Below the pieces are notes generated by a model. It saw only the letters and a list, made by a program, of their open reading frames with translations, was not told the DNA's origin and did not search any database. 61,297 nt of DNA from the IMG/VR virus record IMGVR_UViG_3300028802_000015, positions 1-61,297 of that record. One strand, 5' to 3'. A program made the translations under genes and the position numbers. Of this stretch, positions 22,616 through 57,650 are shown piece after piece (within the stretch, counting starts at the first letter, position 1; each line of letters begins with the position of its first letter). The DNA is from a virus.

Positions 22616-22738
22616 GTGATCCTGGGGATTGTCGGGGGGACTGTCGCTTCCGGCTGGGTGATCGGCTGGCTGCTCAGTACACCCAGGCGAAACAGGTCCC
22701 GACGACCGTCTGACCCGCCCAAGCGGCCCCGTCGGTGA
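22616..22738 (+). CDS. single-span membrane peptide, 40 aa
   Basis: GTG at 22616 (or an upstream CTG). One hydrophobic helix (VILGIVGGTVASGWVIGWLL) is followed by a very basic tail (RRNRSRRPSDPPKRPRR). Its last 65 bp overlap the 3' end of the opposite-strand fibre gene. It is the last gene of the rightward block. Confidence 0.5.
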   Translation: MILGIVGGTVASGWVIGWLLSTPRRNRSRRPSDPPKRPRR

Positions 22739-23606
22739 GGTGCCACACCTTGCCCTTGATCGTGGCCCCGGACACGAACGGGACGACGCTCATCGCCAGG
22801 GTGGTCACCTCTTGGAACTCGACGCTGATGATCCCGGCCCGCCCGGACAGGTCGGTGGAGTTCAGCAGGGTGACCTCGCCGCTGCCGTCGCTGGTCGCGC
22901 TGAACTGCTTGACCATGTAGGTCAACCGCTGGTCGGTCCACGGCCCGGACAGCCGCAGCAGTTCGTTGCCGCCGGGGCCCGGGATGAGCATCTGGTCGTA
23001 CTTGTCCTTGACCGGCAGCCAGTCGGAGCCGTCCCAGTAGTCCACCTGCCCGGGGGCGGACTCCAACGTGGACAGCGTGTTGAGTTCCGGCGGCAGGCTG
23101 GTGGCGTCCCGGTCGGCGGTGTTGACGAAGTGCCGGGTCATCCGGTTCATCCCGGCCTGGGTCAGCCCGACCCCGCCGGTGTCGCCGACCACGAACCGGG
23201 AGGTGTCGCCGACCACCCCGAGCGGGGCACCCGCGGACCCGTCGCCGAGCATCGTCAGGTCGTGGGTGACCGCCCCGGTGGGTGCGGTCACCGGGTCCTG
23301 CGCGACCCACTGCTGCAACGAGGTGTTCCAGCCGAGGACCTGCCCGCCGTTGGGTGTGGTCGCGGACACGTCCGGCAGGTCCGACAGGGTGGCCGTCTCC
23401 GCGTAGTCCACCCGCAGCGTCCACGGGTCCTCGGTGGTGCCGCTGCCGCCCAGGGACAAGTCGAACGGGGTGGTGTCGTCCACTTCCAGCGACAGGTCGG
23501 AGGTGATGACGAACGGGTCGGCCGCCGAGCCTGAGCCGGAGACGGTGATGTTCGCGCCCGCGACGACCTTGCAGGAGCAGGAGGCACCTCCACAACAGGC
23601 TGGCAT
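22674..23606 (-). CDS. tail fibre/tip protein with Cys adapter, 310 aa
   Basis: AGGAGCACAG precedes the ATG. The first 35 residues (CCGGASCSCKVVAGANI, then VSGSGSAADPFVI) match the N-termini of the next two fibres upstream. The body is beta-rich and has a WDGSDWLPVKD tip-like motif. Likely a receptor-binding or tip component. It ends tail to tail with the last rightward gene. Confidence 0.72.
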   Translation of the reverse strand: MPACCGGASCSCKVVAGANITVSGSGSAADPFVITSDLSLEVDDTTPFDLSLGGSGTTEDPWTLRVDYAETATLSDLPDVSATTPNGGQVLGWNTSLQQWVAQDPVTAPTGAVTHDLTMLGDGSAGAPLGVVGDTSRFVVGDTGGVGLTQAGMNRMTRHFVNTADRDATSLPPELNTLSTLESAPGQVDYWDGSDWLPVKDKYDQMLIPGPGGNELLRLSGPWTDQRLTYMVKQFSATSDGSGEVTLLNSTDLSGRAGIISVEFQEVTTLAMSVVPFVSGATIKGKVWHLTDGAAWAGQTVVGTCFAWVY

Positions 23607-23616
23607 CTGTGCTCCT

Positions 23617-24558
23617 CTACGTCTTGATGATCTTGTTGAAGGCGATCCAGGGTGGCATGTTCGCGTCCGTCCCGCTGGTCCCCGCGGAGGTGGCGTCCGT
23701 CACCGAGGTGTGGTTATGGGAGAACGCCGACGCCGTATTGGTGGTGAAGCCGTGCTCGTGAGTGATGCTGTGCCCGCTCGTACCGAACGTGTGGGAGTGG
23801 AGCGCGCCCTGCGTGCCGGTGTGCCCGGTGCCCCCGGTGTCACCGGGCGACCCGGTGATCTGGCCCACGTCGGTGACTCGGGTGCCGGTGCCGGACGCCC
23901 CGGTGGCCCACCGCACGTTGACGCCGTGGTCGTGGGTCTGACCCTCGTTGTTGGTGGTGCCGCTGTGGGAGTGGTCCCGGTTCGCGCTGGCGGTGGTGCC
24001 GCTGTGGTTGTGGTCCACACCACCGGCGTTGATGACGTGGCTGTGGCTGTGGCTGTGGGTGACGGCGATGGCGTCCTGCGACCCGCCCTTGGCGGCGAGC
24101 ACCCGGTTGCTCTGCCCGGCGCTCTGCCCAGCACCGACGGTGACCCGGCTGCGGGCGTCCGGCACGTTGAACGTGTTCACGCCGTCGCCGACGCCGTACT
24201 TGGTCTGGATCACCTCGAACAGTCGGGAGAACTCGACCCGGGCCACGGCCTGCCCGTTGCACATCAGCCACCCGATCGGCGGCGTGTCCCCAGCGAAGTC
24301 GGTGACCGTCCCCGCAGGGACGCTGCCGCCGCCAGTGGGCTCGGTCGCCAGGTCCGCGCCCAGCAGGTACGGGCTGTCCTCGGTGCCCTCGCCGGTGAGC
24401 ACCATGTCGATCGACACCGAGTCCCGCACGGTGAGCACCGTGGGGATGCCAGACACCTTGTACGGGGCAGCGGTCGTGCCGACCCCGGTGATCTTGATGT
24501 TGTCGCCCGGGATGACCTTGCACGAGCACGTCTGGTTGGAGCATCCGCAACGAGCCAT
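23617..24558 (-). CDS. tail fibre with phage tail collar domain, 313 aa
   Basis: The ATG at 24558 follows the upstream TGA by one base. The Cys adapter (CGCSNQTCSCKVIPGDN) covers residues 1-40. From about 90 a tail-collar fold runs through AGDTPPIGWLMCNGQAV and FNVPDARSRVTVG, followed by a His-rich tip (HSHSHSH, HNHTSVTD) ending MPPWIAFNKIIKT. Such His clusters bind metal in fibre tips. Shares its collar with the gene at 27116. Confidence 0.85.
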   Translation of the reverse strand: MARCGCSNQTCSCKVIPGDNIKITGVGTTAAPYKVSGIPTVLTVRDSVSIDMVLTGEGTEDSPYLLGADLATEPTGGGSVPAGTVTDFAGDTPPIGWLMCNGQAVARVEFSRLFEVIQTKYGVGDGVNTFNVPDARSRVTVGAGQSAGQSNRVLAAKGGSQDAIAVTHSHSHSHVINAGGVDHNHSGTTASANRDHSHSGTTNNEGQTHDHGVNVRWATGASGTGTRVTDVGQITGSPGDTGGTGHTGTQGALHSHTFGTSGHSITHEHGFTTNTASAFSHNHTSVTDATSAGTSGTDANMPPWIAFNKIIKT

Positions 24559-24559
24559 G

Positions 24560-25804
24560 TCACAACTCCGCGGAGAAATCGACGTAGGTCGGGTTGGCAC
24601 CGGTGCGGCACAGCACCGCCGGGTGGCCGACGGTCATGGTCGAGGTGGTCGTGGTGACCTCCACCGTCACCAGGTCCAGCCCGACCGTCGTCTGCGTGAT
24701 CGACTGGACGGCGTACGTCCCGCCCGGGGTCCGCACCGTGTAGTTGCCGAGCGTCGGGTCGAAGGCCACCCCGACCCCGATCCCGTCCGGACGCAGCGAC
24801 GGGGCAAGCGCGAAGTCCACCTGCGCCTTGTTGGTGGCGCTGACGTACCCGGAGTTCGACAGGTGGTGCATCGAGGAGTTCGGGTCGTTGTTGTACTTCC
24901 GGTGGAACCAGCGGCGGCACTGCTGCAACACGTCCACCGGGTGCAGCCGCTCGTAGGTCGTCGCCTTCGCGCCCGCCTCCAACTGGATATCCGTGAGCCG
25001 GAACGTGGCGTTCTGGATGCCGATGCCGGAGGACCTGACCGCGTACGTCGTCCCGGCCGAGAGCCAGAAGTAGAGTTGCAGGAAGTCGTTGTGGTCCGAC
25101 CCCATCGCCCCCGAGCCCTTCCCGGCGATGCTCGGCAGGGTGAACGAGATTTCGTACGACTGCCACACGGGGCTGAGTTGGATCGCGCCCGGCGAGGTGT
25201 AGTAGGCGTAGGTGCCACCGGTGCCGGTGCCGAGGTGCTGCATCAGTTCGATGCCGACCTTCGCGCTGTCCGGGCTCTGCCCCAGGAACGACAGGGTGCA
25301 GACCCGCCCGGCCAGGGTCCGGGCGCTGGCGATCCGCTGTAGCCAGGTGGCGGTGCTGCCCACGCCGCTGAGCCCTGCGGTGACCAGTTGCGCGTAGTAC
25401 GGAGCGCCGTTCATCCCGGCGTCCACACCGAGCCCGGCCTCCGGGCGGCTGAGCGTGACCGTCCCCCCGGACGCGGACTTCATCCACCGGTCAATGTCGC
25501 CACCGGCGGCCCCCATCAGCCCGCGCTGGTACACGGACATGTCGCCGTTTTCCAGCACGTTGCGAGAGCCGAACGAGGTGGTGGGGACGGCGGCCAGGTC
25601 GGCGGTCAGCCGGTACGGCAGGGTCTCGGACCCGTCGCCCACCAGGGTCAGGTCGATGCTGGGGGTGTCCTGCGTGGTCAGTTTCGCCATGCGGGAATGG
25701 ACCTGGTACGGGTCAGTCTCGCTGCCCGAACCGGAGACCTCGGTGTTGTTGCCCGGGAGGATCACACAGGTGCAGACGTTGCCTGCGCATCCGCACCGTG
25801 CCAT
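24560..25804 (-). CDS. tail fibre with Cys adapter and carbohydrate-binding-like domain, 414 aa
   Basis: AGGAAGCGC lies upstream. The adapter CGCAGNVCTCVILPGNN is followed by RNVLENGDMSVYQRG, a jelly-roll-type beta domain like carbohydrate-binding modules. The C-terminus ends TYVDFSAEL, close to YLDLSSEL of the paralogue at 28143. Probably host-surface binding. Confidence 0.8.
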   Translation of the reverse strand: MARCGCAGNVCTCVILPGNNTEVSGSGSETDPYQVHSRMAKLTTQDTPSIDLTLVGDGSETLPYRLTADLAAVPTTSFGSRNVLENGDMSVYQRGLMGAAGGDIDRWMKSASGGTVTLSRPEAGLGVDAGMNGAPYYAQLVTAGLSGVGSTATWLQRIASARTLAGRVCTLSFLGQSPDSAKVGIELMQHLGTGTGGTYAYYTSPGAIQLSPVWQSYEISFTLPSIAGKGSGAMGSDHNDFLQLYFWLSAGTTYAVRSSGIGIQNATFRLTDIQLEAGAKATTYERLHPVDVLQQCRRWFHRKYNNDPNSSMHHLSNSGYVSATNKAQVDFALAPSLRPDGIGVGVAFDPTLGNYTVRTPGGTYAVQSITQTTVGLDLVTVEVTTTTSTMTVGHPAVLCRTGANPTYVDFSAEL

Positions 25805-25848: not shown

Positions 25849-25861
25849 TTTAGTGACTAAA
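25849..25861 (-). repeat. TTTAGTNACTAAA site 18 (plus-strand centre G)
   Basis: Lies 45 bp before the start at 25804. Read along the leftward gene, the centre is C. Confidence 0.92.
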
Positions 25862-27115: not shown

Positions 27116-27805
27116 CTACGTCTTGATGATGAAGTTGATCCCGAGCCAGGGTGGCATGTTGGCGTCCGTCGGTGAGACACCAGCCGCGACCGCGCTCGCG
27201 TCTACGGTGATCGCGTGGGTGTGGTTGGCGCTGATGCCTCCGGTGCTGAACGTGTGGCTGTGCAGCGCTGACTGGGTGCCACCGTTGCCAGTGCCCGCCG
27301 CCTGACCGGCCTGCCCGTTCGCGCCACCTACGTCACGGACACGGACCTGCGCGCCAGCGCCGCCGATCTGGCTCACGTCCCACTGCACGTTGATGCCGTG
27401 CGAGTGGAGTTGCGCCTCACCGGCGGTGGTGCCGGAGTGGGTGTGGTCGGCGCTGACCGTGCCGGATGACGCGGTGTGCGCGTGGCTGTGGGAGTGGCTG
27501 GCGACAACCGCGTCCTGCGCACCACCGGTCGCGGCCCGGACCCGGTTCGTCAGCCCGGTCCCGGTCCCGACACCGAGCGGCACCCGGCCCCGCAAGTCGG
27601 GCACGTTGAACGTGGTGGACCCGTCACCCGTGCCGTAGGCCGTACCGATCGCGTTGAACAGGTTGGCGTAGGCGGTGCGGGACACCGCTGTCCCGTCGCA
27701 CAGCAGCCACCCGGCCGGTGCGGCTGCGCCCGCGTACATGGTCGCCGCGCCAGGGGGCACGGCTGCCAGGGCAGCGGGCTCCGGGTACAGCGTGACGCCG
27801 CTCAT
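27116..27805 (-). CDS. phage tail collar protein, 229 aa
   Basis: Collar signature AGAAAPAGWLLCDGTAVSR and FNVPDLRGRVPLG at about 25-80, then His repeats HSHSHAHT, DHTHSG, LHSHTF, NHTHAIT, ending MPPWLGINFIIKT. Near-paralogue of the distal half of the fibre at 23617 but without the Cys adapter. Receptor-binding tip candidate. Confidence 0.87.
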   Translation of the reverse strand: MSGVTLYPEPAALAAVPPGAATMYAGAAAPAGWLLCDGTAVSRTAYANLFNAIGTAYGTGDGSTTFNVPDLRGRVPLGVGTGTGLTNRVRAATGGAQDAVVASHSHSHAHTASSGTVSADHTHSGTTAGEAQLHSHGINVQWDVSQIGGAGAQVRVRDVGGANGQAGQAAGTGNGGTQSALHSHTFSTGGISANHTHAITVDASAVAAGVSPTDANMPPWLGINFIIKT

Positions 27806-28146
27806 GCGAAGGTCAGCCCGCTCACCGTGAGGGTCAGCGCTGAGGCGGCTGAGGCGTGGGCGACGACGGTCCCTCCGGCCGGGAGGATCTGGGACAGGTC
27901 GAACGTCAGCACCGACTTCACTGGCACGTCAATGTCATGCAGCACCCGGTTGGCTGTTCCTCCCGTCCCGCCACCGGGGACCAGTGACACGAACGCGCTG
28001 GCGGTGGCGTTGGTGATGTTGGCGATGATCAGTTGCTTGACGATGATCGAGAGTCCGACGGGCACCGTGTAGATCACCGCCGCCGCGTTGGCGAGCGTGA
28101 GTTGTGCGAGACGCACCGGGATGTAAACGGGGGGTGCTGGCATCAC
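27802..28146 (-). CDS. beta-sandwich tail protein, 114 aa
   Basis: YIPVRLAQLTLANAAAVIYTVP and NRVLHDIDVPVKSVLTFDL match the first 110 residues of the gene at 29258 (same order of motifs). Probably a duplicated fibre accessory or chaperone. Confidence 0.75.
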   Translation of the reverse strand: MMPAPPVYIPVRLAQLTLANAAAVIYTVPVGLSIIVKQLIIANITNATASAFVSLVPGGGTGGTANRVLHDIDVPVKSVLTFDLSQILPAGGTVVAHASAASALTLTVSGLTFA

Positions 28147-29261
28147 AACTCCGAACTGAGGTCGAGGTAGGCACCAGCGGTGCCGTTCCTGATCCAGACA
28201 CCCTGCCCAGAGGTGGGCCCGGCTGCGGTGTTGACGTGCAACTCAAGGGAGTCGGCGCTGGTCCCCGCAGCGGCGACAGCCGTGCTGGTGCCGCTGGCCC
28301 CACCACCCCATGCACTGAAATGTGTCTGCGCCGAAGCGGTCAGTGTCGGTGCGGCGCGCATGGTCGGGTAGTGCAAGGCGCAGTAGTAGTCGAAGTTCTG
28401 CCAGGCCGTGCCGCTGGCGACAGCCGTGTTCGCAGCCGAATACAACTTGCGGATGAAGTAGCGCTGGTTCCACACCATCTGCAACGCCTGCGGCAAGCGG
28501 TCGAACGGGGTGGCGAGCGACCCGGCCTCCAACTGCACGTCGGTCAGGGTGATCGTGGCGTTCTGGATGCCGATGCTCGACGCGTGGCTGGCATTGGTCG
28601 TACCCGACGACAGGTAGATGTTGATCTGCAACGAGTCGGTGCCGCTGCTGCCGTAGGTCTTGCCGGTCAGCGACGGCACGGTGAACGTCACGAAGTACCG
28701 GGTCTTGGTGGTGCTGATCGTAATCGCCGCGACCGGGGTATAGACGATCGCCGACGGAGCCCCGCCGGACCCGAAATACTGGACGCACTCCACGCCGACC
28801 TTCGGGGTGCCGGTGCCGCTGAACGCCTCGAATGAGAGGGTGGCCTGCTGACCGGCGAGCCGGTGCACGCCCTCGACCACGAAGGTCCAGCCAGCGAAGT
28901 CACCGGCCGCAGACTGGCTGGCGACCACCGACTCCATGCCGTACCGGGCACCGGTGCCCAACGTGAGTTGCCGCAGGTTGGCGGTCATGGTGCCGCCGGA
29001 CACGAACTGATACCAGCCGTCGATGGTGTACCGACCGCTGGTGGTGAACGGCCCAGGGCCGCGCTGCGCTATCTGGCAGTCGCCGTTGCGGATGACGTTG
29101 CGGCTACCTGGCAGCGCCAGGAGTTGCGCGATCGTCGCGTCCCTGGCGGCGAGCAGCGTCTCGACTCGCTCGGCCAGCAACTTGATCGTGTTGTCGCCGT
29201 CGCGCACGTCGTCGCCGCCGACCGGGTACGGCAGCGCGTAGGTCGGGGTGCTGGCGCTCAC
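28143..29261 (-). CDS. tail fibre with carbohydrate-binding-like domain, 372 aa
   Basis: GTG 29261 overlaps the upstream TGA (GTGA). Residues 1-60 hold YALPYPVGGDDVRDGDNTIK and a short coiled coil. RNVIRNGDCQIAQRG starts a beta domain paralogous to the gene at 24560. It lacks the Cys adapter, so attachment differs. Confidence 0.8.
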   Translation of the reverse strand: MSASTPTYALPYPVGGDDVRDGDNTIKLLAERVETLLAARDATIAQLLALPGSRNVIRNGDCQIAQRGPGPFTTSGRYTIDGWYQFVSGGTMTANLRQLTLGTGARYGMESVVASQSAAGDFAGWTFVVEGVHRLAGQQATLSFEAFSGTGTPKVGVECVQYFGSGGAPSAIVYTPVAAITISTTKTRYFVTFTVPSLTGKTYGSSGTDSLQINIYLSSGTTNASHASSIGIQNATITLTDVQLEAGSLATPFDRLPQALQMVWNQRYFIRKLYSAANTAVASGTAWQNFDYYCALHYPTMRAAPTLTASAQTHFSAWGGGASGTSTAVAAAGTSADSLELHVNTAAGPTSGQGVWIRNGTAGAYLDLSSEL

Positions 29262-29701
29262 CCGGACCACGAGTCCCAGGTCGTACCGGCGGGGATCGAG
29301 TCCCAGGTCCGGCCCAACGGCTGCGCGTCCCAGGCCCGGGTGTCACCGGGCCAGTCGAACTCCACCCCACCGACGGTCATCGTCACGATGCTCGCCGTCG
29401 CAGCGTGGCCGACCACCATGTCCCCGGCCTCCAACACCTGATGCAAGTCGAACGCCAGTGACGACTCGGCCCGCAGGTCGAGGTTGTGGATGATCCGGTT
29501 CCCGACCCCGCCGACCCCACCGCCGCGGGGGACCAGGCCGATGAACACCTGGGTGGCCGCTCCGGTGTTGGCGAGGGACACCTGCTGGACCACCGCCATC
29601 TTCCCGCTCGGCACGGTGTACGCGGTGGCGGAGGCGGCGTTGGGCAGCACGACCTGACCCATCCGGGCGGGCAGGTAGAGAGCGTTGGGGTTGGTCGGCA
29701 C
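29258..29701 (-). CDS. beta-sandwich tail protein, 147 aa
   Basis: LYLPARMGQVVLPNAASATAYTV, then NRIIHNLDLRAESSLAFDL match the paralogue at 27802. A W-D-S repeat tail (TWDSIPAGTTWDSWSG) follows. It pairs with the fibre at 28143 as the paralogue pairs with the collar protein. Confidence 0.75.
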   Translation of the reverse strand: MPTNPNALYLPARMGQVVLPNAASATAYTVPSGKMAVVQQVSLANTGAATQVFIGLVPRGGGVGGVGNRIIHNLDLRAESSLAFDLHQVLEAGDMVVGHAATASIVTMTVGGVEFDWPGDTRAWDAQPLGRTWDSIPAGTTWDSWSG

Positions 29702-30520: not shown

Positions 30521-33500
30521 TCACTCGGCAGCCGCAGCGTCAGCGTCCGGGTCCTGTCCACCACGTGGTGCGGGGCTCATCACGACCTGCACCTTCTCAC
30601 CGTTGGTGTCGGCGACGACGGTCACCGAGTCCAACTTCTGCCACTGCCCCACCTGGCGGCAGGTCCCCTCGGACCGCAGCGGTATCCACACCCCGGGGAC
30701 CAGTTGGTCGAACCCGACCCCGACCTGCGGGTTCAGCATCGAGTTGTCCGGCACCCGCACCACGATCGGCGACGGCCACCGCCCGGCGATGTTCCGCTGG
30801 GCCTGCGACTCCAACTGCGTGATGAGCGCCTGCCGTGCGGCCGGGGTTAGCGCCTCGTCGGTGGCCGCGGACGCCTCGTCGTAGGCGGACGCCAGCATCT
30901 CGATCGGCCCGTAGTAGGCGTTGGGGAACGGCTCGTCCTTGGGACGCACCGCGCCCCACACCCCGGACCCGTTGGTGACCGCCTCGTAGTTCGCGGTCTG
31001 CATCCCGTACTCGGTGACGATCGGCGGCTGGTCGAAGTCGTTGTCCCGCATCTCCGGCAGGCGGCCGATCGCCCGGTGGGTGTCCCACAGGATGATCCGG
31101 CGACCGACCGTGGTGTAGTCCAGCCCGGCGGTCGCTGCCAGGTCGTCCACCTGCTCCCACGCGGTCTGGCTGTAGTCGGCGACCACCCGGGACTGCCGGG
31201 CGTCGTCCGGCCCGTTCAGCGCCGTCAGGTGCGGCAGGATGTTCGGGTCGCTGGGGGCCAGCGCATTCACGATGATCATCTGCGCGCGCTCGACCACGGT
31301 CCGCAGCCCGCGCTGCACCCCACCGGAGGTGACCGGCAGCCCGGTGACCGGATCGACCATCTGGAACGAGTCGTTGTACCCCTGCCGCATGATCCGCCGG
31401 TAGAGGTACGCCATCACGTCCTTCGCCTCGATCTCGACGGACTGCGTGGTGTATGTGATCCGGGTGATCGGCCCCTCCCACACCCGCTTCTCGTCGCGGA
31501 ACACCACGAGTTCGTGCGCCCAGGAACGCAGGTCGGCGTAGAGGCGGCAGCAGTCCGGGCCGAAGCCGTTGGTGTCCACGACGCACGCGGAAATGTCGTC
31601 GCGGCGACGGCTGAACGTGAGGTTGCTGACCGGGGTGATCTCGCCCCTGGGGGTGCGCCCGCCCTGGTCGTAGATGAACACCCGGTAGGTGCCGCAACCC
31701 AGCGCACCCTGGATCTTCGGGTTCGCCACGACCGGCTTCGCGGTGACCTCGGAGCCGGGGGTGGCGATCGACCAGAACGTCGCCGGTGCCGACCAGTCCG
31801 ACTGGGTGCCGCCACCGGTGTCGTAGGTCCGGACCTGCCACTCGTAGTGGTAGCCCGGCGCGAACGTCTCGATCGGGAACACCCAGTACGGGTTGGCCCC
31901 GGGGATGCCCGGGGTCTGCGCACCCACGTGGGTGATCCACGCCGAGTCGTCCTGACCGACCAGCCGCCACCGCACGTCCGCGCGCTTCTGGGTGTCACCG
32001 GCGTCGTAGTCGATGAACCGCCACGCCATCGTGACCGTCTTGGTCACATCCACCGCCACGTCCCGCACCGGCAGGAGCAATTGCGGTGGGCTGGTGGTGC
32101 CCATCGAGTAGAACGAGTTGGCGAACGACCAGTCCGACCAGCGGCCCTGCAAGTCCTTGGTGCGGACCATCCACTCGTAGTACGTGGAGCCCTTGAATGT
32201 GCCGGGTGGTGCCGTCCAGTTCACGACGGCGCTGCTGGACCCGTCCACCAGGACCCACGGCCCGGACGCCTGGGACACGGTGGCCGCGGTCCGGTACTGC
32301 AACTGGAAGCCGGACTGCGCGTCCCCGTCGTCGGGGTCCTCGAACGTCCACGAGAACCCGATCGGGGACAGCGACGGCATGTTGGCGTTCTCGGCCGGGC
32401 TGATCAGCGTGGACGCCGTGGGGCCACGGTTGGTCCAGAAGTCGATGCTGTTGAAGTCCTCGCTGATCAGACCCCGGTTGTCCTGCGCGTACAGCCGTGC
32501 GTAGTAGTGGGTGTCCTGCGCCAGACCGGTCAGGTCGATGAACGCCCGCTGCTCGTTGCCGAACCAGTCGGTCCAGTAGTCCCCGTAGGTCGCGAAGTTG
32601 CTGATCGTGGTGAGCCGGACCAGCATCCGGATCACATCTTCGGGGTTCGGGTCGTTGACCTCCGCCTCGACGCGCACCGTCCCGGTGGACCGGGTGGGCA
32701 CCTCGGTCTCCGCGTCAATGTCGTTGATCTTCACGGCGGTCGGCGCGGTGGGCTTGAGGTTCTCGGGCGGGGGCTCGCCCCACTTGACGACAACCGTGCC
32801 ACCAGCGGTCCCGCCGGTCCCGCGCTCGCTCTTGGCCGCGGTCAGGCCACCGGTGTAGTTGGCTCCACCGGCACCGCCGCCGCCGACCCTGACGCCCTTG
32901 CGGGACGCTGCGCCGCCGCCGCCGGAGTGGTAGCCACCACCGCCGCCGCCGCCACCGTGGCAGTCGCCTGAGGGAGGGGAACCGCCCTCGCCGCCGGGTT
33001 GCAGGATGCCGGTGCCCGGGGTCCTGTCGTTCGGCTTGTGGCCGCCGCCCCAACCGGCGAACCCGCCACCGGCCGGGGTGGTGCCACCGGCACCGCCGCG
33101 GGTCTGGGTGCCGCCGAGAGCGGAGTCGATCGGCCCGTCACCGGAGTTGCCGTCCGCGCCAGCGCCACCGGTCGCAGCGCCGCCAGCGCCACCCTTGCCA
33201 GCGTCCCCGGACGCGCCACCAGCACCACCGGCGACCGCCTTGAGGGAGCCGCTCTGGGTGCCGAGGCGGATGACGGTGGCACCGCCGCCACCGTCGCCAC
33301 CCTGACCGTTCCGGCCGCGACCACCAGCCCCGCCACCACCGAACACCGCGGACCCGGGGTTGGCCCCGGAGTTGGGCTTGCCGACACCGCCGCAGGAGAT
33401 CCAGAGTTTCTGCAACGGGGTGACCGCGAGACGGCCCTCGACCTTGCCGCCATGGCTGTTACCGGACCCACCGCCGGTCAGCGTGAGCGTCACCGATGTG

Positions 33501-33562
33501 ACGCCCTCGGGCACGGTGAACGTCTGCCACCCGCCCGAGTACCCGTATGACTCGGTGGGCAT
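30521..33562 (-). CDS. large minor tail protein, 1013 aa
   Basis: Residues 1-265 are Gly-rich (SYGYSGGWQTFTVPEGVTSV, then long Gly runs). Residues 270-620 hold fibronectin-III-like beta repeats (STYYEWMVRTKDLQGRWSDW, YHYEWQVRTYDTGG). The C-terminal 380 residues resemble the baseplate hub part of siphovirus minor tail proteins (WEQVDDLAATAGLDYT). It starts in a TGATG overlap. Confidence 0.85.
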   Translation of the reverse strand: MPTESYGYSGGWQTFTVPEGVTSVTLTLTGGGSGNSHGGKVEGRLAVTPLQKLWISCGGVGKPNSGANPGSAVFGGGGAGGRGRNGQGGDGGGGATVIRLGTQSGSLKAVAGGAGGASGDAGKGGAGGAATGGAGADGNSGDGPIDSALGGTQTRGGAGGTTPAGGGFAGWGGGHKPNDRTPGTGILQPGGEGGSPPSGDCHGGGGGGGGYHSGGGGAASRKGVRVGGGGAGGANYTGGLTAAKSERGTGGTAGGTVVVKWGEPPPENLKPTAPTAVKINDIDAETEVPTRSTGTVRVEAEVNDPNPEDVIRMLVRLTTISNFATYGDYWTDWFGNEQRAFIDLTGLAQDTHYYARLYAQDNRGLISEDFNSIDFWTNRGPTASTLISPAENANMPSLSPIGFSWTFEDPDDGDAQSGFQLQYRTAATVSQASGPWVLVDGSSSAVVNWTAPPGTFKGSTYYEWMVRTKDLQGRWSDWSFANSFYSMGTTSPPQLLLPVRDVAVDVTKTVTMAWRFIDYDAGDTQKRADVRWRLVGQDDSAWITHVGAQTPGIPGANPYWVFPIETFAPGYHYEWQVRTYDTGGGTQSDWSAPATFWSIATPGSEVTAKPVVANPKIQGALGCGTYRVFIYDQGGRTPRGEITPVSNLTFSRRRDDISACVVDTNGFGPDCCRLYADLRSWAHELVVFRDEKRVWEGPITRITYTTQSVEIEAKDVMAYLYRRIMRQGYNDSFQMVDPVTGLPVTSGGVQRGLRTVVERAQMIIVNALAPSDPNILPHLTALNGPDDARQSRVVADYSQTAWEQVDDLAATAGLDYTTVGRRIILWDTHRAIGRLPEMRDNDFDQPPIVTEYGMQTANYEAVTNGSGVWGAVRPKDEPFPNAYYGPIEMLASAYDEASAATDEALTPAARQALITQLESQAQRNIAGRWPSPIVVRVPDNSMLNPQVGVGFDQLVPGVWIPLRSEGTCRQVGQWQKLDSVTVVADTNGEKVQVVMSPAPRGGQDPDADAAAAE

Positions 33563-34926
33563 CAGGCGGCTCGGCTGTAGAGCGACAGGTCAACGATCGG
33601 CGGCTTCTGGGTCTGCGGCAGGTCCACCGTCACCACGTAGCCGATCCCGCAGGACAGTTCCGGCCACGCGAACGGGTTGCCGTCGGAGCCGAACACCAGG
33701 CTGTCCGCGCGGCGGCGGCCACCACCGGGGGTCTGCAAGTAAACCACCCGGTCGGAGCCGTCGAACACCAGCGTGGAGTTCTGCGGGATGTACGAGAACA
33801 CAATGTCGCCGCAGAAGTTGCACGGGTCCTGGTTGGGGTCACCGGCCCCAGAGGAGTCGCTGTAGAACCGCAGCCGCATCGAGCGCACCTCGTACAGCGG
33901 GGCCCTGATCTGCAACATGGGCACGACCTCACCCCACAGCGGCACCCGGTCCTTGGGGATCACGAACTGCCGCCTGATGTAGTTGACCGGGAAGTCGAAG
34001 CAGGCGATATCCACGTTGGGCAGGCCGGGCGGCGGGATCACGAACGGGCAGGCCGGGTCGAACACCGGGGTGTAGTCCTCGACGGGGCAGGTGACCTCGG
34101 TCTGCACGAACCCGTCCACGTCGAACATGCCGCCCTCGGGGACCTCGCCACCGGCGTAGGGCACGTCCACCTCGGGGTCCATGAAGCCGATCACGACCGG
34201 CTCCTCCTGGCCCCACTCGTAGGGGTTGCCCGCGACGATCGTGAACGTGGCGGTCCATACGCAGCCGCCGTCGGTCATCGTCTGCTTGCCGCTGACGGTG
34301 GGCCCGGTGAGCAGGGTCGCGTTGCGCAGGGTCCGCAGGTAGGCGTTGAGGCAGGACGACATGTCCACGGTCGGGTTCATCCCGTCCATGCGCACACCGT
34401 CCACACCGAAGCCGAACCGGCGGTCGAGCATCGCCAGGTCCAGGGTCGGCTCGCACTTGAGGTAGCACAGGTCGTGGCCCTGGCAGGAGCCGCTGGCCGG
34501 TCCGGCGCACGCCTGCCCGCCGAGGGCCGCGCGCAGCCACCGCATCCCCGCTTCGACGCCGCACTCGTTGGCACCGATCAGTGCCACGTTGAACGTGACG
34601 CTGCGGGTGGTGTGCCGGACCCGGCCGATGACACCGCCGTCGCCGACGTTCTCGGTGATGGTCGCCGACCAGGTGGCGTCCTCCACGCCGCCCACGTCCA
34701 GCGGGTAGCAGCCGAAGAAGTCGAAGGTGTCGGGGTCGCGCCAGTCCAACCACGGGGCGTCGTCCTGCAACGGGCTGGTGTACGTCTCCTCCAACAGGGG
34801 GCCGAGGTACTCGTTGCGGTAGATCGGCTTGAACCACCCGACGCCGGAGTTGCGGGCGTACACCTCGGTCCGCTGGGCGTTGACGATCTCCGTCCCGCCG
34901 TACTCGTAGTAGCCGATCCACGCCAC
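33562..34926 (-). CDS. distal-tail-type minor tail protein, 454 aa
   Basis: First gene after the tape measure, the usual place of the distal tail protein. NSGVGWFKPIYRNEYLGPLL and 15 or more Cys (CQGHDLCYLKCEP) suggest disulfides or metal sites. GCATGG context with GGAGGCCCC upstream. Probably links tube to tip. Confidence 0.83.
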   Translation of the reverse strand: MAWIGYYEYGGTEIVNAQRTEVYARNSGVGWFKPIYRNEYLGPLLEETYTSPLQDDAPWLDWRDPDTFDFFGCYPLDVGGVEDATWSATITENVGDGGVIGRVRHTTRSVTFNVALIGANECGVEAGMRWLRAALGGQACAGPASGSCQGHDLCYLKCEPTLDLAMLDRRFGFGVDGVRMDGMNPTVDMSSCLNAYLRTLRNATLLTGPTVSGKQTMTDGGCVWTATFTIVAGNPYEWGQEEPVVIGFMDPEVDVPYAGGEVPEGGMFDVDGFVQTEVTCPVEDYTPVFDPACPFVIPPPGLPNVDIACFDFPVNYIRRQFVIPKDRVPLWGEVVPMLQIRAPLYEVRSMRLRFYSDSSGAGDPNQDPCNFCGDIVFSYIPQNSTLVFDGSDRVVYLQTPGGGRRRADSLVFGSDGNPFAWPELSCGIGYVVTVDLPQTQKPPIVDLSLYSRAA

Positions 34927-34958: not shown

Positions 34959-37598
34959 CTAGAAGTAGGACGCTGCCGCGAGCCTGTTGACTGCCTCCCG
35001 GGCGACCGCCGCCGGGTCCTTGGCGGGGGTGACGATGGTCAGCCCACCGACGTTGATGCTGCGGGAGTTGTTGGTGTTCGTCTCACTGAACGCTGCCTTG
35101 CCCTGGGCGATGGCGGACAGCGAGCGGACCGCGGGGTCCACCAGCCCGAGTGGCCGGTTCAGCGGGACGACTGCTTCGGGCCCGTCCTCACCGATGAGCC
35201 GGGTCTGCGGTCCGACGAACACACCGCCGGACGCGGAGCGTGGTGCGTGCCCTGACATCTTGATGATGTAGGAGGTGGTCACCGACCGGGGGACCTGGTT
35301 CCACTCCCATTGGAGGTCGGCTATGTCATCGAGCGCTGCCTTGCTGCCGACGATGCTGTAGTCGGTCTTGACCGTCGGGGTGACCCCGCGCAGCGACCGG
35401 TTCACGTCGTTCTTGAACTTCTCGAAGTCCGCTGCTGCGGCCCGCAACCTGGGGCCGATCTTCGGCATCCAGCCGAACGCCTTCGCCGCGCCGGTGACGA
35501 ACACACCCACCAGGTCGAGGAACTTGCCGACGATCGACGCGAGCGCGTTGCGGATGGGCTGCACGATGCCCTGCGCACCCGACTTGAGTGCCCGCCACGC
35601 GTCGTCCCCCTTGCGCCCGATGCTGACCAGGTCGCTGATGGTGGACGCGAACGGGATGGACGGCAGCACCGACTTGAGCGCGCCGAACGCGCCGTTCACC
35701 CTGTCGATCGCCACCGACGCCCCGTGCAGACCAGAGGCGAGGCCCCCGAATATCTGCGACGCCAACTTCCGGTTCTCCGGGGTGTCCAGTGCGTTGAAGA
35801 TATCGAGGATGCCGCGGACCGCGTTGCCGACCTCCTTGGCGATCCGCACCCCGTCACCGATCCACTTCTTGATCGCACCGGGGTGGGTGTCGAGGTAGTC
35901 GATGAACTGCTGCACCGATTCGGTCATGCTCTGCAACAGGTCGTTGCCGCCCTCGCGAGCGTCGTCGCTGAACAGGACCTTCCCGATCGCCTCACCGACG
36001 GTGGTGATCAGGTCCCAGAGTTCCTGCGCGGAGTCGGCGGCCCGGGACATGAACCGGACGATCCCTGCCTGACCACCGGCAGAGTTGGCCCACTCGGCGA
36101 ACTCGCTGGTGACACCGGACAGCCAGCCCAGGAAGTCCATCGTGATCGGGGCAAGCCCCCGCAGCAGCCCACCGATCCCGGCGAACACGTTCCTGGCGAC
36201 GGTGCCCATCGTGCGGATCGCGTCAGGGATGAACTGCTGCATCGCCCTGACGAAGGTCCTGAATCCCGGGCTGTTCGACGCCTTGGCGAACTGCCCGATC
36301 ACGTCGCCGATCGCGTCGGACACGTCCTTGATCAGCGGGGTGATGTTCTTGAACGACCCCTCAATGTCATCCGCGGAGTCGGTGATGCCCGCGACGATGC
36401 CGCCAGCGGCGACCGTCTTGAGTTCCTTGAACTGGTCGATCGTCCCCTTGAGGGACTCTTTGAGCCCCTTCTTCATCTTGTCGTCCAGCCCGATGAACGC
36501 CAGGCCCACCGTTGCCAGACCGAACGCGATCGGGGCGAGGAGCCCGCCGAGGACACCGAGCCCAGCGGATAGCGCGAACGACACCGCTGAGCCAAGCGCG
36601 ACGATCGCCCCGACGATGCCGCTGATCAGACCGGCGACCGGGCCGAGGATCAGGATGAGACCGGCTATGGCACCGCCGACGGCGAAGATGTTCCCGGCCA
36701 GTGGGGCGAGTTCCTTGCTGAGCGCACCTAGCCCAGAGAAGCCGCCACCGGCCTGACCGAACACATCCTTGAGCCGCCTCCCCTCGTCGGCCAGCCCACC
36801 GATGCCCCGCACCACTCGGGCGAGGATCTCCACTGGGGCCTGCACGAACGCGCCGAAGAAGTTCAGCAGGTCGTTGCGGGAGCCGCGGCCGAACGCCTTG
36901 CCGACCTTGTTGCCTGCCGTGTCGAGACTGTCACCGAGCCGGTCGAGGACGTTGCGCCCGCTAGTCACTCCGCGCTCAATGTCGCGGAACCACTTCTTGA
37001 GGTGGTCCTTCTGGGAGAACTCCTCGATGTTGTGGGTGACGGTCCGCAGGTGGTGCCCGTAGTCCCTGATCGACTCGGATGCGCCGTCGAACGCGTTGCG
37101 CGCATCGACCTCGATCTCGGCCATGTTGCGGCGGAACTTGCGCTCGAACTCGTCGGCGTCCATGACCTCGGCGAGCGCCTTGTCGATCTGCCCGCGGATG
37201 TTGCCGGGCAGCACCCCGGTGCGGGACAGGCCCTCGGACATGTTCTTGGCGACCTTCTCGCCGACACGCTGAGCGCGCCCGCCGAGTTTGTCGTCGTCCA
37301 GCCCGGCGACGATCCCGCGCTGGATCTTCTCCTCCAAGCCGCGGGCGAGCAGTTGGGTGTCGGCGTCGATCTGCCCGAACGCCCGGTCGATCTTCGCGCG
37401 CAGCCCCTTCTCAAGGTTGCGGTCCTTCTTGTTCTGCGCGTTGAACCCTTCGGTGTACGCCCGGGAGTGCTCCTCGCCCTTGTCCTCGAACACCGGGTCG
37501 AGGTCGTCCATCTCGTCGCGGATGGACTTGGGCAGGCCGGTGCCGTCCGCGAGGATGCGGACGTAGGCGGTGCCGACGGTTTCCCTACCGAACGCCAC
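34959..37598 (-). CDS. tape measure protein, 879 aa
   Basis: Long helical protein with an amphipathic N-terminus, hydrophobic glycine-rich spans in the middle (GAIAGLILILGPVAGLISGI, FALSAGLGVLGGLLAPIAFG) and a C-terminal GEDGPEAVVPLNRPLG motif common in tape measures. At about 0.15 nm per residue this predicts a tail near 130 nm. The GTG start overlaps the chaperone extension. Confidence 0.93.
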   Translation of the reverse strand: MAFGRETVGTAYVRILADGTGLPKSIRDEMDDLDPVFEDKGEEHSRAYTEGFNAQNKKDRNLEKGLRAKIDRAFGQIDADTQLLARGLEEKIQRGIVAGLDDDKLGGRAQRVGEKVAKNMSEGLSRTGVLPGNIRGQIDKALAEVMDADEFERKFRRNMAEIEVDARNAFDGASESIRDYGHHLRTVTHNIEEFSQKDHLKKWFRDIERGVTSGRNVLDRLGDSLDTAGNKVGKAFGRGSRNDLLNFFGAFVQAPVEILARVVRGIGGLADEGRRLKDVFGQAGGGFSGLGALSKELAPLAGNIFAVGGAIAGLILILGPVAGLISGIVGAIVALGSAVSFALSAGLGVLGGLLAPIAFGLATVGLAFIGLDDKMKKGLKESLKGTIDQFKELKTVAAGGIVAGITDSADDIEGSFKNITPLIKDVSDAIGDVIGQFAKASNSPGFRTFVRAMQQFIPDAIRTMGTVARNVFAGIGGLLRGLAPITMDFLGWLSGVTSEFAEWANSAGGQAGIVRFMSRAADSAQELWDLITTVGEAIGKVLFSDDAREGGNDLLQSMTESVQQFIDYLDTHPGAIKKWIGDGVRIAKEVGNAVRGILDIFNALDTPENRKLASQIFGGLASGLHGASVAIDRVNGAFGALKSVLPSIPFASTISDLVSIGRKGDDAWRALKSGAQGIVQPIRNALASIVGKFLDLVGVFVTGAAKAFGWMPKIGPRLRAAAADFEKFKNDVNRSLRGVTPTVKTDYSIVGSKAALDDIADLQWEWNQVPRSVTTSYIIKMSGHAPRSASGGVFVGPQTRLIGEDGPEAVVPLNRPLGLVDPAVRSLSAIAQGKAAFSETNTNNSRSINVGGLTIVTPAKDPAAVAREAVNRLAAASYF

Positions 37599-52550: not shown

Positions 52551-53075
52551 CTATCGAGCGCAGGTGAGGATCGTCCGGTTGGTGTCCACTGGTTCTCGCT
52601 GGTGCACGCTCAGTTCTTGCAGAGTAAAGCCGGGCGGGCAGGTCGCTGCCGGACCTGCTGGGCCGGTGGCTCCGGTGGCTCCGGTGGCTCCTGTTGCCCC
52701 GGTCGCACCGGTCTGTCCGGTCACTCCCTGTGCACCGCGTGGGCCGCGCCTGCCCCTGGGTCCGCGAGGCCCCTCCGCGCCTGTCGCACCTGTCGCTCCG
52801 GTCGGGCCGGTGGCACCCTGAGGGCCGGTGGCACCCACACCCCCCCTGACGGTGGCACCGGTAAGGCCGGTCGGTCCCTGTCCCCCCTGCGGACCGGCCG
52901 GTCCCCGTTCCCCCACCGGGCCTGCTGGTCCTGTCGGCCCCGGTGGTCCGGTGGGCCCGGGTTTAGTGACTAAACGCGCCGCCTCGACCGGCTCCGGTTC
53001 TGGCACGGCGATGGCGATCGTGAACGAGGTGACGGTCAGCACTCCGGCGGCGGCGAAGCCGAGGACGGGGTTCAC
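52551..53075 (-). CDS. membrane-anchored collagen-like protein, 174 aa
   Basis: A signal-anchor ([20 protein letters not shown]) at residues 5-24, then from residue 40 about 35 Gly-X-Y triplets, then a C-terminal Cys pair (TCPPGF...LTCAR). Codons 35-38 (LVTK) are the palindrome at 52962, exactly between anchor and collagen parts. Collagen repeats in a lysis cassette are unusual. Confidence 0.78.
52962..52974 (-). repeat. TTTAGTNACTAAA site 26 (plus-strand centre G), intragenic
   Basis: Read in frame as LVTK, at the join between the membrane anchor and the collagen domain of the 174-aa protein. Confidence 0.9.
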
Positions 53076-55880: not shown

Positions 55881-55962
55881 CAGGCTCCTCCGGTGTGACG
55901 ATCGCCAGCAGCAGCGCGACCGCGAGCGCCGCACCCATCGGCTTCTTCCTGGTGTAGGGCAT
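55801..55962 (-). CDS. possible membrane peptide overlapping the previous gene, 53 aa
   Basis: ATG in a TGATG overlap with the fibre gene. One span (MGAALAVALLLAIVTP), then an acidic tail read over the neighbouring gene for 80 bp. Could be real or a frame artefact. Confidence 0.4.
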   Translation of the reverse strand: MPYTRKKPMGAALAVALLLAIVTPEEPDGDHGDSDPDPGDGAERGAGVRDGVQ

Positions 55963-57650
55963 CAGGGTGCGGTGATGCACAGGGTCCGGATGACCACGAC
56001 GCCGGGCGCTCCGTCGCCGCCCTTGCCGGACGCGAAGGTGTTGCGGGACGCCGCTCCTCCTCCGCCGCCCGCGCCGTACTTGGCTCCGTCGCCACCCTTG
56101 GCTCCGGTGGCGTTGGTGGTTGCGGTCCCGCCGCCGCCGCCGTTGCCTCCCAGGTAGGCGAGTGGGTTGCTGGCGTTGCCGTTGGCCCCGCCGCTGGTGG
56201 AGGCCAGGGCCCGGGGCTGGTCGAGGGCTGCGCCGGTGACCCCGCCGGAGCCCCCAGCGAGCGCGCTGTTGCCCGCGGTGATGGACCCGCCGCCTGCCCC
56301 GCCGCCGGGCGCGGCGTTGCTGTCGGTGCCGTTTGCTGCGGTGGCGCTGATGGACCCGGCCCCGCCCGCGGCCCCTCCGTAGCCTCCGGCACCGCCGAAG
56401 CCGCCTGCCCCGGCACCACCGGCGGCTGAGCCGGTGCCTGCCCCGCCACCGCCACCGGCCCCGACGCGCATGAGTCGGGCGGTGGAGGTGGCCTGGTCCG
56501 CGGTCAGTGACGCGCCGAACGAGCACGCGCCGCCAGGGTTCCCGGCCTGCCCGACGGTGTTGTCGGTGCCGATCGCCGGGCCACCTGCCCCGCCGCCCGC
56601 GACGACGACGGTCTCGCTGGTGTCGAGGGCGTCCGCGCCGAACCACCAGTGGCCGTAAGCGCCGCCTCCTCCGCCGCCGCCACCACCGGCGACCGAGGAG
56701 GTCGCGGTGCGGGCACCGGACCCGCCTCCGCCTCCTCCGGCGACCATGATGACCTCGGCCAGGACGGCACCGGCGGGCTTGTTCCAGGTGAACGTCTGGG
56801 TGACGAGCGGGTTGCTGGGCTGGAACACCTGCACGTCCACGGTGACCAGCGAGCCGCCTGCTCCGGCTGCGCCGGTGAGGCCCTGGATGCCTTGCGGGCC
56901 TTGGTCGCCGGTGTCGCCCTTGTCACCCTTGGGTCCTTGCAGCCCTTGCTGGCCTTGAGCGCCTTGGGGACCTTCGGGACCTGTGGCCCCGGGGGTTCCG
57001 GGTGTTCCGGCGGAACCGGCGGGTCCTTGGGCTCCGGTGTCGCCGGTGTCGCCCTTGGGACCCTGGGGTCCGGTCGCTCCGCTCGGTCCTTCCGCTCCGT
57101 CCTGTCCGGCGGGTCCGGGTGCGCCTCCCTGACCGGTCGGGCCCTGGGTTCCCGTTGCGCCTGTGGGTCCGGCCGGTCCCATTTCGCCGCGGGGGCCTTC
57201 GACTCCGGGGTCCCCGGGGTCACCCTTCTCCCCGGGGGTCCCGGCTGGCCCGGTGTCACCGGGGTCACCCTTGTCGCCTTTGGTTCCGGTGGTGCCGCGG
57301 TCGCCTTTGGGGCCGCGCAGGGTGAGGATGCCGGGGGTGATCTCGACGGGTGCTTCGTTGGGCAGGTCGATGGTTGCCCCGGCGGGGGCGTGGAACGCGA
57401 ACCGCCTGCCGCCCTTGACGGTTTCCCGCACCATCCAGGTCCACCCGGTCGGGGACAGCGCGGGGTCGTCGGTGGCTTGGAGTTGGACGGTGAACGACCC
57501 GTCTTCGTCCAGCGGGACCCGGATGCGGCGGGGCACGACCACCGCGTCGGGGTCCTCGCGGGTCAGCAGCGGTGGGATGAACGTGAGGTAGCCCTTGGCG
57601 GGTGACCCGTCGAGTTCGGTGTAGCGGCCGGTGACGGTGGCGGTGGTCAT
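55962..57650 (-). CDS. collagen-like and glycine-rich fibre protein, 562 aa
   Basis: Residues 1-110 form a beta domain ([20 protein letters not shown]). Residues 111-275 hold over 50 Gly-X-Y triplets. From 278 a Gly-rich domain ([20 protein letters not shown], then Gly runs) resembles the N-terminus of the 1013-aa tail protein. It lies far from the tail genes, next to regulators. Confidence 0.8.

Follow-up and report, generated by a model that had tools for sequence, protein, structure and literature searches.

A cysteine-rich N-terminal adapter shared by tail-fibre proteins with different tips in an actinobacterial-type phage

The DNA analysed here (the window) is a virus record of 61,297 bases from IMG/VR with a GC content of 68%; its portal protein is 37-39% identical to portals of Arthrobacter and Microbacterium phages. 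On the minus strand, the tape measure gene (34959-37598) is followed by the gene for a phrog_838 protein (33562-34926) and by gene K (30521-33562), which codes for a tail-tip protein whose C-terminal 400 amino acids correspond to a phrog_837 minor tail protein. Two blocks of tail-fibre genes lie behind K, the first from J to D (30490 down to 25897), the second consisting of C, B and A (25804-22674) and closing the tail module. Two small paralogous phrog_1276 proteins, 48.6% identical (29258-29701 and 27802-28146), each adjoin a fibre gene, which suggests that a two-gene unit was duplicated. A second collagen-like fibre gene is located at 55962-57650, distant from the tail module, and collagen-type repeats are additionally present at 52663-52960.

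Genes C (24560-25804, 414 amino acids), B (23617-24558, 313 amino acids) and A (22674-23606, 310 amino acids) are all encoded on the minus strand, and the coordinates given for them in the first-pass annotation were borne out. The start of B is the ATG at 24558, 1 nt past the stop codon of C; an open reading frame starting with GTG at 24600 was rejected as an over-extension. C consists of the adapter and a tip that has PHROG tail fibre matches and is homologous to the product of 28143-29270. B combines the adapter with a phage tail collar domain (PF07484) and a His-rich tip, and A carries the adapter, a LxDLPDV...GQVLGW fibre repeat and a C-terminal beta-sandwich tip.

The three proteins start with MARCGCAGNVCTC... 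(C), MARCGCSNQTCSC... (B) and MPACCGGASCSC... (A). The adapter comprises residues 1-75 in C (25580-25804) and in B (24334-24558) and residues 1-73 in A (23388-23606), again on the minus strand. It opens with a strict block of four cysteines, CxC-x4-CxC, which reads MARCGC-AGNV-CTC in C and MARCGC-SNQT-CSC in B and occurs as the variant CC-x4-CxC in A (MPACC-GGAS-CSC). Two hairpin-like repeats of the type GxG-x3-6-P[YFW] follow (GxG..PY in C). The order behind the cysteine block is the same in all three proteins: GxN, a GSGSxxDPYxV unit and a weaker second copy of this unit. The degenerate second copy (approximately residues 50-68) had escaped the first-pass annotation; 0-4 of 2,000 shuffles were equally good.

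Pairwise comparison of the adapters over 70-75 residues with BLASTP gave 46.7% identity for B and C (75 amino acids, E 1.7e-20), 40.3% for A and C (E 1e-11) and 38.0% for A and B (E 8e-11). The z-scores against shuffled sequences are 32, 20 and 19, respectively, and removal of the cysteine block still leaves scores of 12-24. Residues M1, C4, C6, C11, C13, G18, N20, G25, G27 and P32 (positions as in C) are identical in all three proteins. The proposal that A, B and C share a cysteine-rich N-terminal adapter was thereby confirmed (38-47% identity, z-scores of 19-32). Beyond residue 75 or so, BLASTP detects no similarity among the three proteins; this single phage combines homologous N-termini with non-homologous C-termini.

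Residues 1-50 of the adapter have no profile match in Pfam or NCBIfam. Among the PHROGs, only phrog_863, a 690 amino acid "tail fiber assembly" profile, extends into the adapter, and it does so solely in members of the Woodruffvirus type. Searches by sequence returned no significant solved structure for the adapter, A, B, C or K. In the AlphaFold prediction for A, the adapter contains strands at residues 20-23/33-36 and 48-53/63-68, which fits a modelled hairpin for each GxG..P unit; residues 1-12 are undefined and the rest of the adapter has a pLDDT of approximately 59-75.

A profile made from the three adapters retrieved 16 loci from IMG/VR. The full-length proteins A and C, used as IMG/VR queries with strict short-peptide seeding, found no relatives, which were recovered by the profile and motif routes. 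A search at the DNA level for the motif MA[RS]CxC-x4-CxC-x4-G identified 40 stretches, and 38 of these have a downstream GxG..P motif, which was outside the search pattern. In bacteria and archaea (85,000 species, one genome each) the same motif matched 13 times, twice with GxG..P, both in Streptomyces. Altogether, the profile and motif scans yielded 90 proteins from 60 loci including the window, 71 of which are non-redundant. The four cysteines and a GxG..P[YFWL] unit are kept in all 71, a conservation that is, for the cysteines, partly imposed by the scans; neither the second and third adapter genes of a locus nor the variants (CC, x2-x9) were selected on cysteines, and the second and third genes agree. 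The gap between the last cysteine and the GxG..P[YFWL] unit is exactly 11 residues in 68 members. The cysteines are spaced as CxC-x4-CxC in 52 proteins and as CC-x4/5-CxC in eight, and 11 have other loop lengths. According to the first-pass annotation, a spurious adapter should not be alignable in whole-family profiles; these profiles gave the contrary result and aligned the adapter in 71 proteins.

Different phages have this module on many kinds of tip. When 67 members were grouped by their C-terminal 150 residues, 20 clusters resulted, with collar, Gly-rich, polysaccharide deacetylase, beta-helix and other tip types. Named phages with the adapter are Streptomyces phages (Woodruffvirus), Rhodococcus phage Tonitrus and Saccharomonospora phage PIS 136, and the GC content of the non-redundant loci is 64-71%. 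The PIS 136 protein (JX006077.1, 91093-91824; L082:2959-3690) is labelled as a magnesium chelatase subunit and is an adapter fibre protein. In two loci (L034:6832-8148 and L036:1256-2638) the adapter is fused to a polysaccharide deacetylase domain (PF01522 in Pfam); as predicted from the domain, such a tip would modify and not merely bind sugars of the cell surface. Short adapter proteins of 141-208 amino acids that end in GDGTxxxPxRxxxCTYxxLKxxC and have no obvious tip are encoded in L031, L035, L040, L053, L054 and L065; perhaps they carry another protein. A protein of 92 amino acids in L014 (7723-8001) is nearly the adapter alone, with a short C-terminal part, and its gene is flanked by two full adapter genes.

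Two of the tips in the window have paralogues in the first fibre block. The tip of B is 46.8% identical over 252 amino acids (E 6e-68, BLASTP) to F (27116-27805, minus strand), a collar protein without adapter, and the tip of C is 34-37% identical (E 5e-41, BLASTP) to H (28143-29270, minus strand). Both paralogues had been described as adapter-free: the paralogy holds for both, whereas only F simply lacks the adapter, and H has a different N-terminal module (TPTYALPYPVGGDDVRDGDNTIKxLAERVE; within the first 45 residues or so, at approximately residues 8-42), which is also present in virion proteins of Gordonia phages. Because H starts with this other module, one kind of tip is combined with two distinct N-terminal pieces in C and H. 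The collar assignment for B was correct (PF07484, E 4e-19): with 68.7 bits for B and 87 bits for F, both proteins pass the curated cut-off of 24. The suggested sugar-binding-like fold of the C tip, in contrast, found no support: Pfam gave no carbohydrate-binding match and hhalign against a relative bearing CBM_4_9 was negative (with a query alignment of five sequences only), so that a CBM_4_9 identity is not supported. The AlphaFold model of C, with a mean pLDDT of 40, is too poor to be informative.

The tip of A had been called unique, which is true inside the window only: full-length relatives with 42-63% identity occur in other viral contigs. Its model is confident only in the C-terminal sandwich (residues 213-310 approximately, 22674-22970, minus strand), a block with pLDDT values mostly of 72-94. 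This predicted sandwich has weak structural matches to the R2 pyocin fibre (6cl6), phi297 gp61 and LKA1 gp49; none of the matches in the PDB is significant, and a few viral predictions were also matched. In eight of eight non-redundant loci that have it, the A-type tip comes with its CC-x4/5-CxC adapter variant. Tips are thus not freely shuffled everywhere, as the A adapter variant and the A tip are kept together.

Two or three consecutive adapter genes are present in 25 of the 60 loci, many of which are cut by contig ends. Of the 40 loci in which a homologue of K was found, 39 have it upstream of the adapter genes and in the same orientation, and most of the remaining loci have little upstream DNA. 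In the simplest arrangements an adapter gene follows immediately after K, as in L041, L049, L050, L061 and L022; in L024, L026 and L044 the adapter genes lie beside the terminase gene, with no K gene within the stretch covered. The A-type gene is always the last one, behind another adapter gene with a distance of at most 10 nt or an overlap (8/8 non-redundant loci), and the tip of this upstream partner varies (collar, Gly-rich, short or other). K-type hubs were found in 157 records in all, among them Microbacterium and Arthrobacter phages. In three inspected phages with K (Rowlf, Ranunculus and Kowalski) the cysteine adapter was not found; their fibre-type genes begin with other modules, in Kowalski with a coiled-coil-like start on a collar tip. 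Several alternative N-terminal modules therefore seem to be in use behind the K hub family, and the cysteine adapter would be one of them.

The nearest relatives found are L063, L058, L052 and L046, with adapter genes identical in BLAST, and L032. They match the window gene by gene (L063 has J, I, H in two copies, G, F and D, then B and A), and K is 73-77% identical in L052 and L063. Gene C is missing from the nearest relatives; in L032 and L063 the cassette consists of B and A alone. The sequence leading up to B in these relatives is almost identical to the C leader of the window, down to a palindrome and the CAGGCGGTGTGAACCCGT stretch. Therefore, either the window phage has acquired a slot at the front of the cassette or its relatives have lost one. 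In a tree of the collar proteins, the adapter-collar proteins of the window lineage form a clade (96/96) inside a larger one (85/94) to which the adapter-free collars from these phages also belong, and the adapter-collars of L013-L015 form a separate clade (100/99). This topology weakly favours more than one fusion between adapter and collar tips: the tree needs at least two label changes, but the starred branches force just one.

The palindrome in the leader of the C-B-A cassette, TTTAGTNACTAAA (25849-25861), has 31 exact copies in the window, with none expected from shuffled sequences. They start at 199, 1004, 1627, 2758, 3249, 4102, 5224, 6140, 7741, 8750, 10623, 11503, 13079, 14061, 16384, 18932, 21962, 25849, 30505, 34941, 38275, 40199, 43974, 49268, 51728, 52962, 55508, 58950, 59358, 60311 and 60777, and many are located at most 60 nt from a start codon. 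A palindrome also precedes the first adapter gene in L032, L063, L027 and L066, with a different sequence in some of them (GTTCAGTCACTGAAC in L066, CTTTAGG-TTCG-CCTAAAG in L063 and GGTTTCAG-AAT-CTGAAACC in L027). Since palindromes with other sequences occupy the same position, it may be the shape rather than the sequence that is conserved. The element is a candidate operator or stoperator, or a candidate 5′ leader hairpin.

The module, four invariant cysteines followed by one or two GxG..P[YFW] units, is homologous in A, B and C, is located at the N-terminus, occurs on approximately 20 tip types and is encoded in a cassette behind the K family. We think it likely that A, B and C are tail-tip fibres that plug into the virion via this shared module of approximately 40-75 residues, and that virion docking would be the most probable function of the adapter. 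The adapter would anchor each fibre at a tail-tip site used in common, where K or one of its neighbours is the candidate partner; the synteny with K would fit an attachment there. A trimeric shaft would begin with the beta-hairpins of the adapter, the cysteine quartet might lock the plug via a metal (e.g., zinc) or disulfides, and the C-terminal tips would bind or modify polymers of the host surface. New fibres could arise by fusion of the adapter to a copied tip gene, of a kind that may also occur with another N-terminus. The modular receptor-binding toolkit proposed in the first-pass annotation is thus strongly supported as far as a common module with interchangeable tips is concerned, but the A tip is not swapped freely, and the receptor-binding role is suggested by position and domains (collar, deacetylase, beta-helix, Gly-rich).

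Instead of docking, the N-terminal block might initiate the folding of a beta-rich fibre or cap its start, with attachment through another region. The GxG..P[YFW] unit also recurs as a repeat inside the fibres, and part of the adapter is therefore generic shaft. The cysteine quartet with its fixed spacing of 11 residues, however, is present only once, at the extreme N-terminus and on unrelated proteins, and such uniformity over 20 tip types would not be needed for a cap, which makes this explanation unlikely. That the shared start merely reflects a recent duplication in one genome, with no modular meaning, can hardly be correct: the genes are adjacent and in tandem, but the adapters within this phage are just 38-47% identical, the A-type adapter and the A tip recur together in other phages, and the distribution of the module over 60 loci refutes a simple recent duplication.

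The adapter might also join different chains in mixed trimers, with A as a constant partner and C and B supplying variable tips. This would agree with the A-type gene being last behind another adapter gene with a variable tip in 8/8 non-redundant loci, and the gp35/36/37 baseplate heterotrimer of mycobacteriophage Mysterious is a precedent (PMC13252515). Several phages nevertheless have a single adapter gene directly after K (L022, L061), so that one chain kind suffices there and mixing is not obligatory; moreover, the A adapter is the distinct CC variant and the adapter has no sequence similarity to any solved chain. We give mixed trimers only a small chance. For the docking plug, phage fibres assemble in a reducing cytoplasm, which slightly favours a metal over disulfides. 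A metal-bound or disulfide-stapled plug with twelve cysteines from three chains at the tail tip, together with a conserved A chain as constant partner of exchangeable chains, is a tentative idea with a low but real chance of being right; if it were true, one particle could present several host-binding tips on one socket.

One conserved anchor with swappable tips is an already known principle. Like the window, CBA120 and other Ackermannviridae have several receptor-binding proteins (TSP1-4) with N-terminal assembly or anchor domains and differing tips; unlike the adapter, the N-terminal parts described there are far larger (335 residues in TSP4) and come from E. coli phages (PMC8825819; PMC11414711). 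A sequence search with the cysteine adapter detected no similar solved chain. Receptor-binding proteins of Klebsiella phages likewise combine a conserved N-terminal anchor with a variable C-terminal specificity module but use other anchor families in other phages (PMC6872550; PMC8262889). Mysterious, compared by description only, shares with the window three consecutively numbered actinophage tail proteins, and its trimer docks by N-terminal beta-hairpin arms (PMC13252515); the words cysteine, zinc and disulfide are absent from that text.

Closest to the window are tail proteins of Woodruffvirus-type Streptomyces phages (TP1604 gp25, Geonosis, YDN12, phiSAJS1 gp32, Xkcd426 gp31/32), which share the cysteine adapter at the N-terminus. 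Their genes likewise close the tail module, following those for phrog_838 and phrog_837 minor tail proteins, whereas their tips are Gly-rich or of the RGxGGATYxRIQ type. These proteins are annotated as hypothetical or "tail fiber assembly", and the adapter is not described there as a domain.

In actinobacterial-type phages, the cysteine adapter seems to be a common plug, so far without a name, for receptor-binding fibres that can be exchanged. It raises the structural question why four invariant cysteines are located at a fibre socket. In actinobacterial phages, receptor-binding proteins are difficult to spot, and the members identified here are labelled as hypothetical, "tail fiber assembly" or magnesium chelatase. 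With the strict and short N-terminal signature, fibre tips, including enzymatic ones such as polysaccharide deacetylases, could be listed straight from genomes, and the end of the adapter would offer a convenient boundary for finding out which tip determines the host range of laboratory Streptomyces phages.
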